From Westiellopsis prolifica IICB1 (lineage in GTDB: Bacteria > Cyanobacteriota > Cyanobacteriia > Cyanobacteriales > Nostocaceae), in the NCBI RefSeq assembly GCF_004323185.1, contig NZ_NAPS01000002.1, positions 1,480,481 through 1,524,732 of the forward strand: a stretch of 44,252 nucleotides of DNA, read 5' to 3'. Below, piece by piece: positions 3,702-43,400 of this stretch (position 1 is the first letter of the stretch; each line of letters starts with the position of its first letter). Both the position numbers and the translations under genes were made by a program. The notes below the pieces were generated by a model. It made no database searches. It was not told the DNA's origin and worked only from the letters and a program-made list of their open reading frames with translations.

Positions 3702-3878
3702 GAGAGCAGAGAGCTCTTAGCAGGGAGCTCTTAGCAGGGAGCAGGGAGACAAAGAAGAATAATCGATTCCCAATGCCCCATGCCCAATGCCCAATGCCCA
3801 ATGCCCAATGCCCAATGCCCAATCCCCGATTCCCGATCCCTAATCCCCGATTCCCGATCCCTAATCCCCGATTCCCAC
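3702..3878. repeat. Tandem heptamer and GATTCCC-type repeats between convergent genes
   Basis: Between the convergent pgeF and AraC genes lie a duplicated GGGAGCTCTTAGCA segment (about 3714-3740), a run of CCCAATG heptamers (about 3773-3825), and then repeated CCCGAT / CCCTAAT / CCCCGATT units (about 3825-3876). The run is the reverse complement of the family at the left edge of the window. The short ORFs across it come from the repeats and are not taken as genes. Confidence 0.75.
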
Positions 3879-35839: not shown

Positions 35840-38800
35840 CTATCGGTACAACCAAACACGCAACAACGACAGTAATTGTTCTGTGTCAACAGGTTTGGTA
35901 ATATAGTCGGATGCACCAGCTTCAATACATTTTTCGCGATCGCCTTGCATGGCTTTGGCAGTCAGAGCAATAATTGGTAGAGATTTGAAATTAGGATTAG
36001 CGCGGATGCGTCGGGTAGTTTCGTAACCATCCATTCCAGGCATCATTACATCCATCAAGATAGCATTAACATCGGGGTTATTTTCTAAAACGGTAATACC
36101 ATCATTACCATTTTCTGCATATAAAACTTGCATTTGATAACGCTCAAGCAAACTAGTTAAAGCAAAAATGTTGCGAACATCGTCATCTATAATTAAAACT
36201 TTTTTGCCTACTAGTAGGGTGTCAGAAGTTTGTAATTGTTCCAGAATTTGGCGTTTAGGTGCGGGTAAATTAGCTTGAACACGGTGCAAGAATAAAGCAG
36301 TTTCATCTAAAAGACGTTCTGGCGATCGCACATCTTTGATAATTACTGTCTCTGCGATCCGTCGCAGTTGTGTATCTTCGCTTCTGGTTAATTCCCTTGC
36401 TGTGTACACAATAATGGGTAGTGTTTCACCCTTTGGTTGTTGTTTGATTTGTTCAATTAATTCAAAACCACTCATATCTGGTAGTCCTAAATCTAAGACT
36501 ACACAATCAAATTGCTCTTTGGCGATCGCAGATAATGCTTCACCACCAGTACTGACAGCAGTAGTTGCAACGTCACCGTTACCAATTAATGCTACAAGAC
36601 TTTTACGTTGATTTTCATTGTCTTCTACAATCAGCAAGTTTTTGACTGGTCGTTCCACAAAACCTTTGATTTTAGTTAGTGATTGGTGTAGCGTTTCGCT
36701 GCTGATGGGTTTTTGCAAATAAGCGATCGCACCTTGTTGTAAACTGCGCTGTTTTCCTTCTTCAATAGTCATCACATGTACGGGAATGTGGCGAGTATTT
36801 CCATCATGTTTGAGTCGATCTAGTACTGTCCAACCATCAATTCCTGGTAAATGAATGTCTAACAAAATTGCTGTCGGTTGATATTCCTGTGCTAAGGCTA
36901 AACCAGTATTACCACTGTGAGCAAGGATACCTTTAAAATCACATTGCCGTGCCATATCTAAAAGTATACGGGCAAACTTGGTGTCATCTTCCACAATTAA
37001 CAGTGTGCGATCGCCCGGTTGAATATTGTCTCTGTCGTCAATCACAAGAGAGGGGGGAGTAATGTAGAGACGCGATTCATCGCGTCTGGAAGTGTGGGGA
37101 GTAATGTAGAGACGCGATTCATCGCGTCTGGAAGTGTGGGGAGAGAAATTACTTCCTCGTCCCCCATGTCCCCCATGTCCCCCATGTCCCCCGTGTCCTC
37201 CATCTCCCCCTTCTTCCCCTACTCTATTTACTTGGGGTAAATACAACGTAAACGTGCTACCTTGATCAGGCTGACTAACTAATTTAATTTCCCCATCAAA
37301 CAAACGAGTAATTTCTCGACTGATAGATAAACCTAAACCTGTACCGCCAAATTTACGACTAGTAGTACCGTCTGCTTGTTGGAATGCTTCAAAAATGATT
37401 TTTTGTTTTTCAGGAGCGATACCAATACCTGTATCTTTGACTGCAAAACTGATAACTGTTTCGGCTTGATTTAATGTTTGACGAGCAATACTCCAACCCT
37501 GTTTTGCTACAAATATTTTTAAGTTGACTTCACCTTTTTCTGTGAATTTAAAAGCGTTAGAAAGTAGATTTTTAAGGATTTGTTGCAGTCGTTTAACATC
37601 GGTGTAAATTGTCGATGGTAATTCTGGGTCTAATTCAATTGTAAAATTTAAGCCTTTGTCAATTGCCACTTGTCTAAAAGTACGTTCTAATGGTTCGCAT
37701 AATTCATAAAATGGTAGGTGAACCATATTAATAGACATGGTTCCTGATTCAATTTTGGCTAAGTCGAGAATGTCATTGATTAATGATAATAAATCGTTGC
37801 CTGAAGAGTAAATTGTTTGGCTATATTCGATTTGTTTATGACTGAGATTACCTTCAACATTGTCTGCGAGCATTTTTGCTAGAATTAACAAGCTGTTAAG
37901 TGGTGTTCGCAATTCATGGGACATATTTGCCAGAAACTCAGACTTGTATTTAGAAGACAGTGCTAGTTGTTCGGCTTTTTCTTCTAATGATATTCTGGCG
38001 TGTTCGATTTCGTTATTTTTGCGTTCTACTTCTTTATTTTTATTAGATAATAATTCGGCTTTTTCTTCTAGTTCAGCATTAAGTTGTTGTAATTCCTCGT
38101 TCGATTCCTCTAATTCTTGTTGCTGCTGTCTTAAAAGTTCCTCTGACGTTTGTAACTCTTGAGACTGTTGTTCTAAACGTTGATTTTTTTGTGTGAGTTC
38201 TTGTTGCTGAAGTTGCAATCTTTGGGCTAATTCTTGAGATTCTTTTAAAAGCTCTTGAGTGCGAATATCAGCATTAATAGCATTTAACACTATACCAATA
38301 ATTTCACTAACTTGATCTAAAAAAGTGAGATGAATTTCACTAAATTTTTGAAATGAGGCTAATTCCATAACTGCGATTACCTGATTTTCAAACAATACAG
38401 GCAATACAATAATATTTAAGGGTTTGGCATCTCCTAATCCAGAACTAATACGAATATAGTCACTTGGTACATCTGTAAGTAAAATTTTTTGTTTTTCTAG
38501 GGCGCATTGTCCCACCAATCCTTCACCCAAACGGAATCTATTTGATAAGCTTTTACGTTCTTGGTATGCATAACTACTCAATAGTTTAAACACAGGCTGC
38601 TCATTTTCCCAGTCCATCAAATAAAAAACACCCTGTTGTGCGCCTACCAGTGGTGCAAGTTCTGCAAGAATCATTCTTGCAACATTTTGTAAATTTCTTT
38701 GCCCTTGCAGCATCTGACTAAATTTGGCAAGGTTAGACTTGAGCCAGTTTTGTTCATTATTTCTGAGAGTTGTTTCGCGGAGATTCGCAATCAGCTGATT

Positions 38801-39550
38801 AAATGTTTGTGCTAGTATTCCTATTTCATCCCTGCGTTTACTAGCGGGTAAACTAACAGATAAATCTCCCTCTGCTAATTTTTCTGTAGCTTGAGAGATT
38901 TCTCCGAGTGGTTGAGAAATATTTCGGGTGAGATAAACACCAATTAAAGTTAATAATAAAAAAGCCAGAGAAATACCATAGATAATAGTATCAGTTGCTT
39001 CCTGAGCAGCAATTTGAGTCTTGTCAGTACGCTTTTTTAAAAGTCGAACTTCTTCAGCTTCCATCTCTGTGACTATGCGACGGATTTTATCTAGCAAAAC
39101 CCTACCATTGTCTTGTAGTATCTGTTGTCTTGCTGAATCAAATCCTTGGGTTTCTCGTAAGTTAATTCTTCTTTTGACAATATCTTGGCGTTCGTCAATT
39201 GTTGCTTTTAAATTATCTAATCTATTTTGTTGAAGAGGATTATCAGAGGTTAAATTACGCAGATTATTAAGATTTTTTTCAACATTTGGTAATGCCTGAT
39301 TATAGAATCGCAAAGAGTTTTTGTCTCCAGTGATTATATAACCTCTTTGCCCTATTTCCATATCTTGAATATTATAAAGTAAATTATCTAATTCCCCAAT
39401 CACTTTATAGGTGTGAGCTTGCAACCGAGAGTTTTCAATTAAGTTGTTATTAGTGTGATATGAAATAAATCCGAGAGTTGCAAGAATTGATAAACCTAAA
39501 GCAAATCCAGCACCGATTTTTGTCCCGATTTTGAAATTATTATTTACCAT
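35840..39550 (-). CDS. CHASE3-HAMP-GAF hybrid histidine kinase with three receivers
   Basis: This is a 1236-residue membrane kinase. TM1 is ~12-32. A CHASE3 sensor domain (~40-185; [13 protein letters not shown]) is followed by TM2 (~190-208), HAMP (~205-260), GAF (~285-430), a Glu/Gln-rich coiled coil (~430-530), HisKA with H545 ([18 protein letters not shown]), HATPase ([31 protein letters not shown]), then three receivers ([42 protein letters not shown]...[13 protein letters not shown]). Between HATPase and the first receiver is a repeat-made linker (~37040-37215): a GGH-type tripeptide run and two copies of a 14-residue unit containing [10 protein letters not shown]. It is closely related to the gene upstream (40404-44252), which suggests duplication. 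ATG 39550 is well placed. Confidence 0.95.
37058..37141. repeat. In-frame tandem 42-bp duplication carrying the 20-bp palindrome
   Basis: The units 37058-37099 and 37100-37141 are identical. Each contains AGACGCGATTCATCGCGTCT (37068-37087 and 37110-37129). Forty-two bases equal 14 codons, so the kinase frame is kept. Confidence 0.85.
37160..37215. repeat. 9-bp tandem repeats (CCCCCATGT) inside the kinase linker
   Basis: CCCCCATGT is repeated about four times with variants, then CTCCATCTC and CCCCTTCTT. On the coding strand it encodes Gly-Gly-His tripeptides. The 9-base period means gain or loss of units keeps the frame. Confidence 0.8.
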
Positions 39551-39652
39551 TTTGAATTGATTAGATCAATCAATTTATATTATCGCTTAAATATTTATAT
39601 TATTCGCTCGTGTCGGTAATGGTTAATATTAGGTTTGCTTGATTAATTATAA

Positions 39653-40039
39653 TTCCCAAATCAAAGACTCGACGACGAGTATCAAAGACTCGACGATGAG
39701 TATCAAAGACTCGACGACGAGTATCAAAGACTCGTTGACGAGGTTCAAAGACTCGTTGACGAGGTTCAAAGACTCGTTGATGAGTATCAAAGACTCGACG
39801 ATGAGTATCAAAGACTCGACGACGAGTATCAAAGACTCGACGACGAGTATCAAAGACTCGACGACGAGTATCAAACACTCGACGACGAGTATCAAACACT
39901 CGTTGACGAGTATCAAACACGTGCAGCTGCTTATTTACCCTTATCCCAGTTTCCCTGGTACAGTGTACCAATTTTACTAGCAATGGCGATCGCTCTTTCT
40001 CTGTGGGGTGCGCGTCTATTTTCTCGTCAACAGGATTAA
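39653..40039 (+). pseudogene. Open frame without start: coiled-coil heptads and C-terminal membrane helix
   Basis: The plus-strand frame is open from a stop at 39650-39652 to TAA 40037-40039 but contains no ATG, GTG or TTG. The twelve 21-bp repeats read as heptads LDDEYQR / LVDEYQT, suited to a coiled coil. Continuing in the same frame, 39920-40036 encode RAAAYLPLSQFPWYSVPILL and AMAIALSLWGARLFSRQQD, a plausible membrane anchor with a basic tail at a natural C-terminus. I read it as the 3' remnant of a membrane protein gene. The parent family is not recognised. Confidence 0.5.
39668..39919. repeat. 21-bp tandem repeat array, block 1 (12 units)
   Basis: There are twelve head-to-tail units of CTCGACGACGAG followed by TATCAAAGA, with variants CTCGTTGACGAG, CTCGACGATGAG and TATCAAACA. 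Each unit has a CTCG/CGAG inverted pair around four bases. There are no spacers between units. Confidence 0.9.
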
Positions 40040-40042
40040 CAT

Positions 40043-40189
40043 CTCGACGACGGAGTTCAAAGACTCGACGACGGAGTTCAAAGACTCGACGACGGAGTTC
40101 AAAGACTCGACGACGAGTATCAAACACTCGTTGACGAGTATCAAACACTCGTTGACGAGTATCAAACACTCGACGACGAGTATCATATC
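40043..40189. repeat. 21-bp tandem repeat array, block 2 (7 units)
   Basis: Three units of CTCGACGACGGAG plus TTCAAAGA are followed by four of CTCGACGACGAG or CTCGTTGACGAG plus TATCAAACA, the last decaying at its end. The block starts three bases after the stop codon of the open frame above, so the array extends beyond any protein it might encode. Confidence 0.88.
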
Positions 40190-40227
40190 AAGTTCGGATA
40201 ATTAGTTATACTTTCCACAGTCATTGC

Positions 40228-40299
40228 ACCCCACCCCTTAATCCCTTCCCCGCTTGCGCTTAGGGGAGGTTTTGACGTTAGACAAAACCGGGGTGGGGT
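40228..40299. repeat. 72-bp hairpin-ended repeat (ACCCCACCCC ... GGGGTGGGGT)
   Basis: Perfect 10-bp inverted ends at 40228-40237 and 40290-40299 enclose CCTTCCCCGC...GGGGAGG and a GTTTTGACG...GACAAAAC pair, which could fold further. It lies inside the right part of the larger cassette and looks like a separate small repeat family. Confidence 0.6.
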
Positions 40300-40403
40300 T
40301 CATTGGGAATTATAAGTAATCAAGCAAACCTGATATAACTAGCAACACAAGTGTTCAACCGGACATGATATGAGTCCACTGATAACTGATAACTGATAAC
40401 TGT

Positions 40404-43400
40404 TTACTGATATAACCAGACACGCAATAGTGAAAGCAATTGTTCAATATCAACAGGTTTGGTAATATAATCAGATGCGCCAGCTTCGATACATTTTTCG
40501 CGATCGCCTTGCATGGCTTTAGCAGTCAGAGCAATAATTGGCAAAGATTTAAATTTCGGATTGGCGCGGATGTGGCGAGTGGTTTCATAACCATCCATTT
40601 CTGGCATCATCACATCCATCAAGACAACATTAATATCGGGATTCTCTTGTAAAACTTCTATGCCATCATTACCATTTTCTGCATACAAAATTTGCATTTG
40701 ATAACGTTCTAGCATACTAGTTAAAGCAAAGATATTGCGAACATCATCATCGACGATTAGAACTTTTTTACCTGCAAGTTGAAAGTCAGAGTTTTGTAAT
40801 TGTTCGAGCATTTGACGTTTGGGTGCTGGTAAATTCGCTTGGATACGATGCAAGAATAAAGCAGTTTCATCTAAAAGACGTTCTGGCGATCGCACGTCTT
40901 TCACGATAATTGTTTCTGCGATCCGTCGCAATTGTACATCTTCACTTCTACTTAATTCTCTGGCAGTATAGACAATGATCGGCAATGCTTCGCCATGTGG
41001 AGATTGCTTGATTTGTTCAATTAATTCAAAACCATTCATATCTGGTAATCCTAAATCCAGAACTACACAATCAAACTCACCATTTTGTATGGCTTGTAAT
41101 GCTTCACTACCAGTACTGACAGCAGTAGTTGCAACGTCTGTATTTCCAATTAATTCCACAATACTCAGGCGTTGATTTTCATCATCCTCCACAACTAGCA
41201 AATTCTTCACTCGCCTTTCTACAAAACCTTTAATTTTAGTGATTGCTTGGTGTAAAGCTTCGCTGCTGATGGGTTTTTGCAAATAAGCGATCGCACCTTG
41301 TTGCAAACTCCGCTGTTTTCCTTCTTCGACTGTCATCACATGTACAGGAATATGGCGAGTATTTCCATCATGTTTGAGGCGATCTAGTACCCCCCAACCA
41401 TCCATTCCTGGGAGCCGAATATCTAAGATGATCGCCGAAGGTTGGTATTCTTTAGCTAATGCTAAACCTATGTTGCCACCGTGAGCAACAATTCCTTTAA
41501 ATTCATTCTGTCGCGCCATATCCAACAGAATTCGGGCAAATTTAATATCATCTTCCACTATTAATAGTGTGCGATCGCCCGGTTGAATATTGTCTCTGTC
41601 ATCAATAATCGGCGAGGAGAGGAGAGAGCTTGGAGTGGGGGGTGTGCTTGGAGTGGGGGGAGTAATGTAGAGACGCGATTCATCGCGTCTGGGGGTGTGG
41701 GAAGACAACAAAGAAAAATTGCTCCCTTGTCCCCCTTGTCCCCCATGTCCCCCATGTCCCTCATGTCCCCCATGTCCTCCTTGTCCCCCGTCTCCCCCGT
41801 CTCCCTCTCTACTCGGTTGCGGTAAATACAACGTAAACGTACTACCTGCACCCGGTTGACTAATTAGTTTAATTTCCCCGCCAAACAAACGAGAAATTTC
41901 TCGACTGATCGATAAACCTAAGCCAGTACCGCCAAATTTGCGACTAGTAGTACCGTCTGCTTGTTGGAATGCTTCAAAAATGATTTTTTGTTTTTCGGGG
42001 GCGATACCAATACCTGTATCCCTGACTGCAAAAGCGATTACTTTGTTAGCACGATTCAATGTTTCTTGGTCATAACTCCATCCCTGTTTGGCTACAAAGA
42101 TTTGCAAACTAACTTCGCCTCGTTCTGTAAACTTAAAGGCGTTTGCTAGGAGATTTTTCAGAATTTGTTGCAGCCGTTTGACATCAGTGTAAATTGTCGA
42201 TGGTAATTCTGAGTCTAATTCAATTGTGAAATTTAATCCTTTGTCTACTGCAACTTGTCTAAATATACGTTCTATCCGTTCGTGGAAATCTAATAATCGG
42301 ATCTGATCCATATTAATCGACATGGTTCCCGATTCGATTTTGGCTAAGTCGAGAATGTCATTAATTAAGGACAACAAATCGTTCCCCGCGGAGTAGATTG
42401 TCCGACTGTATTCGATTTGTTTATTGTTGAGATTTCCTTCAACATTGTCTGCTAACAACCTAGCCAAAATCAGCAAGCTGTTGAGTGGTGTCCGCAATTC
42501 GTGGGACATGTTCGCCAGAAATTCAGATTTATATTTAGAAGATAGGGCGAGTTGTTCGGCTTTTTCTTCTAAAGATAATCTGGCTTGTTCAATTTCGTTA
42601 TTTTTGCGTTCTACTTCTTTGTTTTGGACAGCTAATAATTCTGCTTTTTCTTCAAGTTCGGCGTTGGTTTTTTGTAATTCTTCTTGCTGTTTCTTGAGTA
42701 AATCTTCAGAAGCTTTGAGGGTTTGGGCTTGTTGTTCCAGGCGTTTGTTCGTTTCTCGCAATTCATTTTGCTGACTTTGCAATTCCTCAGCTAAAGACTG
42801 GGATTGTTTGAGTAACTCTTCAGTACGCATACTTGCAGCGATGGTGTTCAACACGATCGCAATACTTTCGGTGAGTTGGTCAAAAAACGTCAGATGAATT
42901 TCGCTAAACCGATGGAAAGAAGCCAGTTCAATCACCGCTGTCACCTGGCCTTCAAATAGTACAGGTAAAACTACATCATTGACTGGGTTTGCTTCACCCA
43001 AGCCGGAACTAATTTTGATATAGTCGTGCGGGACTTCTGTGAGCAAAATCCGTTCTTTTTCTAAAGCGCATTGTCCAACTAAACCTTCACCCAAGTGGAA
43101 GCGGTTGGCTAGATGTTTGCGTTCCCGATAGGCGTAACTACTCAGTAGTTTCAAATACAAATTATTATCTGTATTTTCCATGATATAGAAGACGCCGTGG
43201 GCAGCCCCTACTAAGGGCGCCAACTCTCGTAGTATCAGTTTTGACACGGTTTCCAAGTCGCGCTGACCTTGCAACATCCGGGTAAACTTAGCCAGGTTGG
43301 TTTTTAACCAGTCTTGTTCAGTGTTTTTCTGCGTTGTTTCGCGCAGATTGGCAATCATTTGGTTAATGTTGTCTTTGAGGATGGCAACTTCACCTAATGC

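Follow-up and report, generated by a model that had tools for sequence, protein, structure and literature searches.

A repeat cassette between two histidine kinase genes

The window, the whole 44,252-nucleotide stretch of Westiellopsis prolifica IICB1 DNA that was analysed, belongs to contig C8 of the source genome G000 (7.3 Mb). Near its end, an 853-bp spacer separates two hybrid histidine kinase genes, both on the minus strand, and holds a cassette of 709 bp (39627–40335). A first reading of this DNA, made from its letters alone (hereafter the sequence-only reading), had already placed an element between two kinase genes, and ORFs and domain matches bear out that setting. The features of the locus are:

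35840–39550, minus strand: flanking gene, a CHASE3-HAMP-GAF-HisKA-HATPase-receiver hybrid kinase (ORF and domain matches)
39624–39626, no strand: proposed 3-bp target duplication, left copy, TAA (rule from full-length MITE1 copies)
39626–39659, minus strand: bare 34-bp MITE1 terminus (the MITE1 right end, inverted), sharing a C-to-T variant with the right end
39660–39917, plus strand: array 1, 12.3 copies of the 21-bp unit ATCAAAGACTCGACGACGAGT (TRF)
39919–40043, plus strand: 125 bp identical to the 3' end, stop codon included, of an ABC-2 permease gene (parent in contig C8 of G000, ~908.9 kb)
40038–40185, plus strand: array 2, 7.0 copies of a 21-bp unit, the first units of GGAGTTC type (TRF)
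40183–40185, no strand: TCA at the inner edge of MITE1, within an array unit (GAGTA-TCA); same position in L019/L113
40185–40336, plus strand: complete 152-bp MITE1 copy (genome search, alignment, flank comparison)
40336–40338, no strand: proposed target duplication, right copy, TAA
40404–44228, minus strand: flanking gene, a HAMP-GAF-HisKA-HATPase-receiver hybrid kinase, paralogue of the first (ORF and domain matches)

The N-terminus of the second kinase may lie beyond the end of the window. The cassette contains no run of N. We also found no transposase ORF inside it, as had been claimed: its ORFs of at least 80 aa are frames running through the arrays. Tandem repeats occur elsewhere in the window at 3769–3877 (period 7) and, within the kinase genes, at 37054–37219 (period 42) and 41724–41798 (period 9).

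Both ends derive from one MITE family

The cassette was originally seen as bounded by 29-bp inverted repeats. These match at 28 of 29 positions, and the repeat extends outward to 34 bp (39626–39659 and 40303–40336, 32/34 complementary). Searching the source genome with the cassette gave at least 79 matches (40 of 119 first-look candidates scored). Consistent with the claim that the ends are beyond chance, a 28-base end pattern had 39 matches at up to 3 mismatches and none in a reversed control. The two ends are indeed inverted copies, but they are not equivalent: the right one belongs to a complete MITE, whereas only a bare terminus is present on the left.

The repeated element, MITE1, has the properties of a MITE: it is short and non-coding, occurs in many copies, shows imperfect TIRs in alignment and, as a family, is flanked by target-site duplications, although the flanks of the window copy itself do not match. 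Among the distinct full-length copies fetched, leaving out partial matches and duplicate rows, TNA was found on both sides in 17/17 and the triplets were identical in 15/17. The triplets differ in L031 (TTA/TGA) and in the window copy (TCA/TAA), the latter with TCA on its inner, array side. The outer flanks of the whole cassette do match (TAA/TAA, only 3 bp), so that the check for target duplications proposed at the outset came out positive both for the cassette and for the family. In L019 (the same place as L113), MITE1 lies within an array at the same unit TCA, and there both flanks are TCA. We therefore read the inner TCA of the window as a putative fossil of MITE1 insertion into an array.

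The C-to-T variant is carried by both outer ends of the cassette and accounts for 3/40 end matches in the fetched loci (3/39 by the 28-base pattern); its third carrier is an array-adjacent MITE1 copy in L024. With a looser pattern (19 bases, 2 mismatches), the variant was found in 5/50 matches, 2 of these weak, and the control gives 5. When the 50 ends were read by eye, the longest inverted MITE1-end pair within 3 kb was the cassette itself, at 709 bp. The sequence-only reading was to be doubted if its ends never occurred together elsewhere, and the outcome is divided: the inverted pair was found only here, whereas the end sequence recurs in many 152-bp MITE copies. No autonomous IS with MITE1 ends was found among the 50 ends (up to 2 mismatches) or in the flanks of 30 of the 38 PF01609 matches; pairs of an 11-base end with 2 mismatches were present in 4 of these 30 flanks, where they resemble chance, and absent from 26. 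At another locus (L123, ~2126–2538), a further element beginning GTGTACACACAA interrupts a MITE1 copy.

The cassette carries the tail of a permease gene

The spacing of ~120 bases between the arrays was confirmed, but the bases taken to be unique exactly duplicate the 3' end of a gene for an ABC-2 permease, the protein of which matches ABC2_membrane. At the parent locus (L012), an array starts ~11 bp past the stop codon (TRF start 3028, ORF end 3017), and past a run of N there is a second, partial copy of the tail and then another array. The order array-tail-array is thus similar at the two loci, partly obscured by N at the parent. Units of GGAGTTC type, the first in array 2, are also present after the parent gene. 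Identity to the parent stops after 125 bp, where array 2 begins (CATC-TCGACGACGG vs CATC-CTCCCTACGG).

Over 417 bp, the orthologous permease gene shares 93.3% identity in G003 and 94.2% in G002, two same-genus genomes, and in neither is there an array within the 420 bases that follow. In G003, 2.2 units of the 21-bp family lie ~2.1 kb beyond the permease gene (L137).

The 21-bp arrays are mostly intergenic and differ between related genomes

The counts of 12 and 7 units agree with those of TRF. The CTCG/CGAG mini-palindrome ascribed to every unit is present in most of them, in the form ACTCG-NNNN-CGAGT, and the family consists of this motif plus a 7-base linker such as ATCAAAG. A pattern of two such units matched 133 times on one strand of the source genome and 138 times on the other, counts that overlap because the unit is partly palindromic; the control had 0. 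The family was found in 14/59 sampled genomes, all of them within the same taxonomic family (14/35 there, 0/24 outside). Among named genomes, the array pattern occurs in Nostoc, Fischerella, Scytonema, Pelatocladus, Spirirestis, Brasilonema and Tolypothrix (15 stretches).

To survey periods, we ran TRF on an even 800-kb sample of contigs C1 and C8 (L083–L122), 14,073 bases of which are N. Of the 260 arrays in the sample, period 7 accounts for 82, period 14 for 40, period 20 for 2, period 21 for 47 and period 22 for 1. Restricting the count to arrays of 4 copies or more leaves 75, 3, 2, 20 and 0 for the same five periods. Period 21 is thus over-represented relative to periods 20 and 22. In 100-kb samples from other genomes, period-21 arrays with 4 copies or more amounted to 2 in G003, 3 in G008 and 0 in both G031 and G043. 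The longer period-21 arrays fall into several unrelated sequence families. A 5+4+5+7 geometry was considered as a general rule for 21-bp families and dropped, because it fits only the ACTCG family and AACGT-CGCG-ACGTT-TGTGGCT and not the others viewed by eye.

Are the arrays fragments of a coding repeat, as had been suggested? For period 21 or 63 and lengths of at least 84 bp, 23/27 arrays lie outside ORFs extending at least 100 aa past them, and 4/27 overlap one. In the 18 array loci examined, an ORF overlaps the array only in L030, by 40 bases, and that ORF itself contains a run of N; in L125, no ORF was found on one side of the array. The examined arrays of this family are intergenic, and the coding piece of the cassette is the permease tail, which speaks against the suggestion. 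One frame, DEYQRLD, runs without a stop along array 1 and on into the permease tail; it has 22 Pfam matches, mostly to coiled-coil families and all under curated cut-offs. We rejected it as protein-coding because stop codons precede it in the left terminus and, by eye, no start is present there.

From the 18 array loci we took 11 and looked for their flanks in G001, G002 or both, which made 17 comparisons within the genus. Ten of the 17 located both flanks but no array, which may reflect loss or an array never gained. An array was present in 2/17, each time with a different number of units: in L044/G002 and in L042/G001, the latter lacking a match to the right flank. In the remaining 5/17, one flank only was found. 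At the L016 site, G002 retains a stretch resembling an array leader (GTATTTTTGATAGATTC), and leader-like and tail-like ends are common to some arrays. By eye, no target duplication was recognised at arrays without MITE ends, the cleanest sites being L014/G001 and L040/G002. These surveys point to a mostly intergenic 21-bp tandem-repeat layer in the source genome that differs between species of the genus.

MITE ends lie within 45 bp of 7/29 source-genome array blocks (L012 contributes two blocks), where random intergenic 50-mers would give 0.5. Adjacency to MITE1 may be over-counted here (L019, L024 and the window), because loci were fetched for matching the cassette, MITE1 part included. Five of the 7 blocks (L011, L020, L024, L027, L043) adjoin a second MITE family and are free of this bias. 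The ends of that family are GGGAGCATCCCAA, with 64 and 70 matches within 3 mismatches (control 3). In several places they form inverted pairs ~1.7–1.8 kb apart, possibly full IS copies; one fetched example (L240) has an interior that is mostly N.

The kinase pair lacks the cassette in related genomes

All three same-genus genomes compared keep the kinase pair and lack the cassette: the spacer measures 27 bp in G001, 271 bp in G002 and 243 bp in G003, vs 853 bp here. None of the three has an exact empty site because the bases around the insertion point have diverged. The sequence-only reading had counted a missing empty site against itself; what the relatives offer is a site that is short or differently filled, and the outer TAA triplets match. 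The G002 spacer (L050) contains a different insertion of ~110 bp between similar flanking bases. A PF01609 match in the source genome (L198) lies between inverted ends similar to those of the G002 insertion. Paralogous duplication debris, put forward earlier as what would overturn the element, is unlikely, because the relatives have both kinases without the cassette.

How was the cassette assembled?

We favour, with moderate confidence, a non-autonomous composite transposon of MITE1 ends that landed whole with a 3-bp TAA duplication. As in a composite transposon, inverted transposon ends lie at both outer edges and the outer triplets match, if only over 3 bp. Further support comes from the MITE1 inside an array in L019, the C-to-T variant at both outer ends, the identity of the permease tail to its parent when orthologues differ by several percent, and the enrichment of MITE ends beside array blocks. 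A non-autonomous element was among the original suggestions. That part of it stands, as the cassette is TIR-bounded, holds a coding piece and is absent from the site in 3/3 same-genus genomes; the part that made the arrays coding repeats does not.

Assembly could have proceeded in four steps. (i) The 21-bp arrays would have arisen behind the ABC-2 permease gene, with its 3' end sandwiched between arrays. (ii) MITE1 would have inserted into one such array at a unit TCA, of which the window may keep the fossil and L019 an intact example. (iii) A second, inverted MITE1 end would have been present beyond the array block and later cut down to 34 bp. (iv) A transposase acting in trans would have used the two outermost ends to move the block to a TAA site, a movement suggested by outer flanks that match and inner flanks that do not. 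The spacer before insertion would read ...GGTTAACTAGC... across the insertion point.

Several points count against such a composite. Step (iii) would require a left MITE1 of which only 34 bp survive, and given that TNA is required, we estimate the chance of a matching TAA at ~0.3. The cassette was found only once in the source genome, the C-to-T variant is not private to it with the looser pattern, the three relatives offer no intact empty site, and the searches described above found no autonomous IS with these ends.

Alternatively, the cassette may be a local patchwork: an array grew or arrived in the spacer, MITE1 copies inserted separately on each side, and nothing moved whole. The permease tail would then have come by recombination between arrays or by gene conversion, and the right flank of the MITE would have been reset by an adjacent deletion. 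Similar arrays, which could recombine, exist at about thirty loci of the source genome, and such a history also accords with the order of arrays and tail at the parent locus, the differing unit numbers at the orthologous sites of L042 and L044, and the enrichment of MITE ends beside arrays. However, it predicts neither the matching outer TAA nor the C-to-T variant common to both ends, and we hold it to be rather unlikely, if the most serious rival.

A second possibility is an artefact of assembly or gap filling, in which arrays acted as assembly breakpoints and the permease tail was spliced in from the parent locus. Misassembly is a real risk because other arrays of this assembly contain runs of N (at least 7 loci: L012, which is the parent locus, L021, L034, L042, L045, L124 and L125), and the tail is 100% identical to the parent. 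Yet the cassette is free of N, the sequence that follows the 125 bp differs from the parent, and neither the matching TAA nor the common variant is expected of an artefact. We consider this explanation improbable.

Finally, selection could maintain the 21-bp arrays, here and at other loci, for a function, be it protein binding, weak promoter activity in tandem or the formation of hairpin RNA. The unit is conserved across one cyanobacterial family, the stem positions of the arrays are well conserved, and 10 of ~19 units (window 39678–40165) contain a weak TTGATA-17-GATACT pair on the minus strand, pointing toward the downstream kinase gene. The region has 15 promoter-like sites vs 2.2 expected in shuffles, 10 of the 15 being one repeated motif. 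Stem pairing reaches 0.868 in 226 units from other genomes (shuffle mean 0.851, maximum 0.863 in 200 shuffles), and 14 units of other genomes have changed on both sides of the fifth pair. In contrast, 343 units of the source genome pair no better than shuffles (0.858 vs 0.859); 244 distinct units give 0.811 (shuffle mean 0.798, maximum 0.811). This test drops duplicate loci (L097, L102 and L113, which repeat L045, L040 and L019) and units with N, and choosing its units for their resemblance to the consensus favoured intact stems; moreover, relatedness of sequences alone can exceed such shuffles. No Rfam match came near its gathering score, the two microRNA-family matches (E 0.0056 and 0.91) scoring 25.3 and 19.3 bits vs 86 and 76. 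The earlier suggestion of a structured RNA thus gains little: no pairing excess in the source genome and a slight one elsewhere. Arrays are also missing between preserved flanks in the 10 comparisons above. We regard a selected function as very improbable.

Returning to the composite transposon, its effect on the host is likely passive: it would separate two genes that lie 27 bp apart in one relative, and the longer spacer may affect transcription. No sign of a product encoded by the cassette was seen. If the composite is real, a bacterial MITE family can act on repeat arrays and part of a host gene in the manner of a composite transposon, which would provide a route for copying gene ends about. 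More broadly, and with more doubt than conviction, we propose that Nostocaceae may carry mobile minisatellites: intergenic, strict 21-bp arrays of several unrelated families that spread alongside or within MITE ends and are able to take fragments of host genes with them, the cassette being a composite caught after one move.

Comparison with known systems

Elhai et al. reportedly described, in 2008, small dispersed repeats (SDRs) of 21–27 nt in Nostoc that often lie inside heptamer tandem repeats and minitransposons. By description only, these are alike in size class and come from related organisms; SDRs are reported to be dispersed single units, whereas the 21-bp units here form tandem arrays. 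Nezha is said to be a MITE family from cyanobacteria, reported by Zhou et al. in 2008, and is likened to MITE1, also a cyanobacterial MITE family, by description only.

The sequence-only reading knew of no described element of this form. Its component kinds are known, namely MITEs with a minisatellite inside, mobile insertion cassettes and composites flanked by MITEs. What sets the present variant apart is that a strict 21-bp array family occurs together with a whole nested MITE and the tail of a host gene; searches of open-licence PMC literature turned up neither this combination nor a recognisable description of 21-bp arrays in Nostocales.

In the passages drawn on here, the type II MITEs of Anabaena sp. 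90 are short, intergenic in 132/147 cases and lack matching IS ends in the genome (PMC3542288). MITE1 resembles them, by description only, as a short MITE of a related cyanobacterium for which the searches above found no IS with matching ends. The IS1031 group of the IS5 family is described as preferring TNA and generating a 3-bp direct repeat (PMC12016507). MITE1 follows the same target rule, TNA with a 3-bp duplication, but the end sequence quoted for that group differs from that of MITE1, and no transposase is tied to MITE1.

Mobile insertion cassettes are described as foreign sequence between IS-type ends without a transposase, and pairs of MITEs around a segment have been likened to a composite transposon (PMC3129680, PMC5444012 and PMC6382973 as a group). 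Compared with those descriptions, the passenger here consists of repeats and a gene tail, and mobility is deduced from one copy.

The closest precedent appears to be BrickBuilt of Porphyromonas gingivalis, described as a multi-copy minisatellite inside a MITE, with a 23-nt unit and reported to be always intergenic (PMC4596501). By that description, it shares with our elements a non-autonomous, multi-copy nature, no transposase remnant and a tandem array of short units between ends, to which leader-like and tail-like ends correspond in a subset of the array loci here. Compared on the same basis, the units differ in sequence and length (23 nt there, 21 bp here), 4/27 arrays here overlap an ORF by the rule used, and most arrays lack MITE1 ends, whereas the cassette adds a host gene fragment and a complete MITE.
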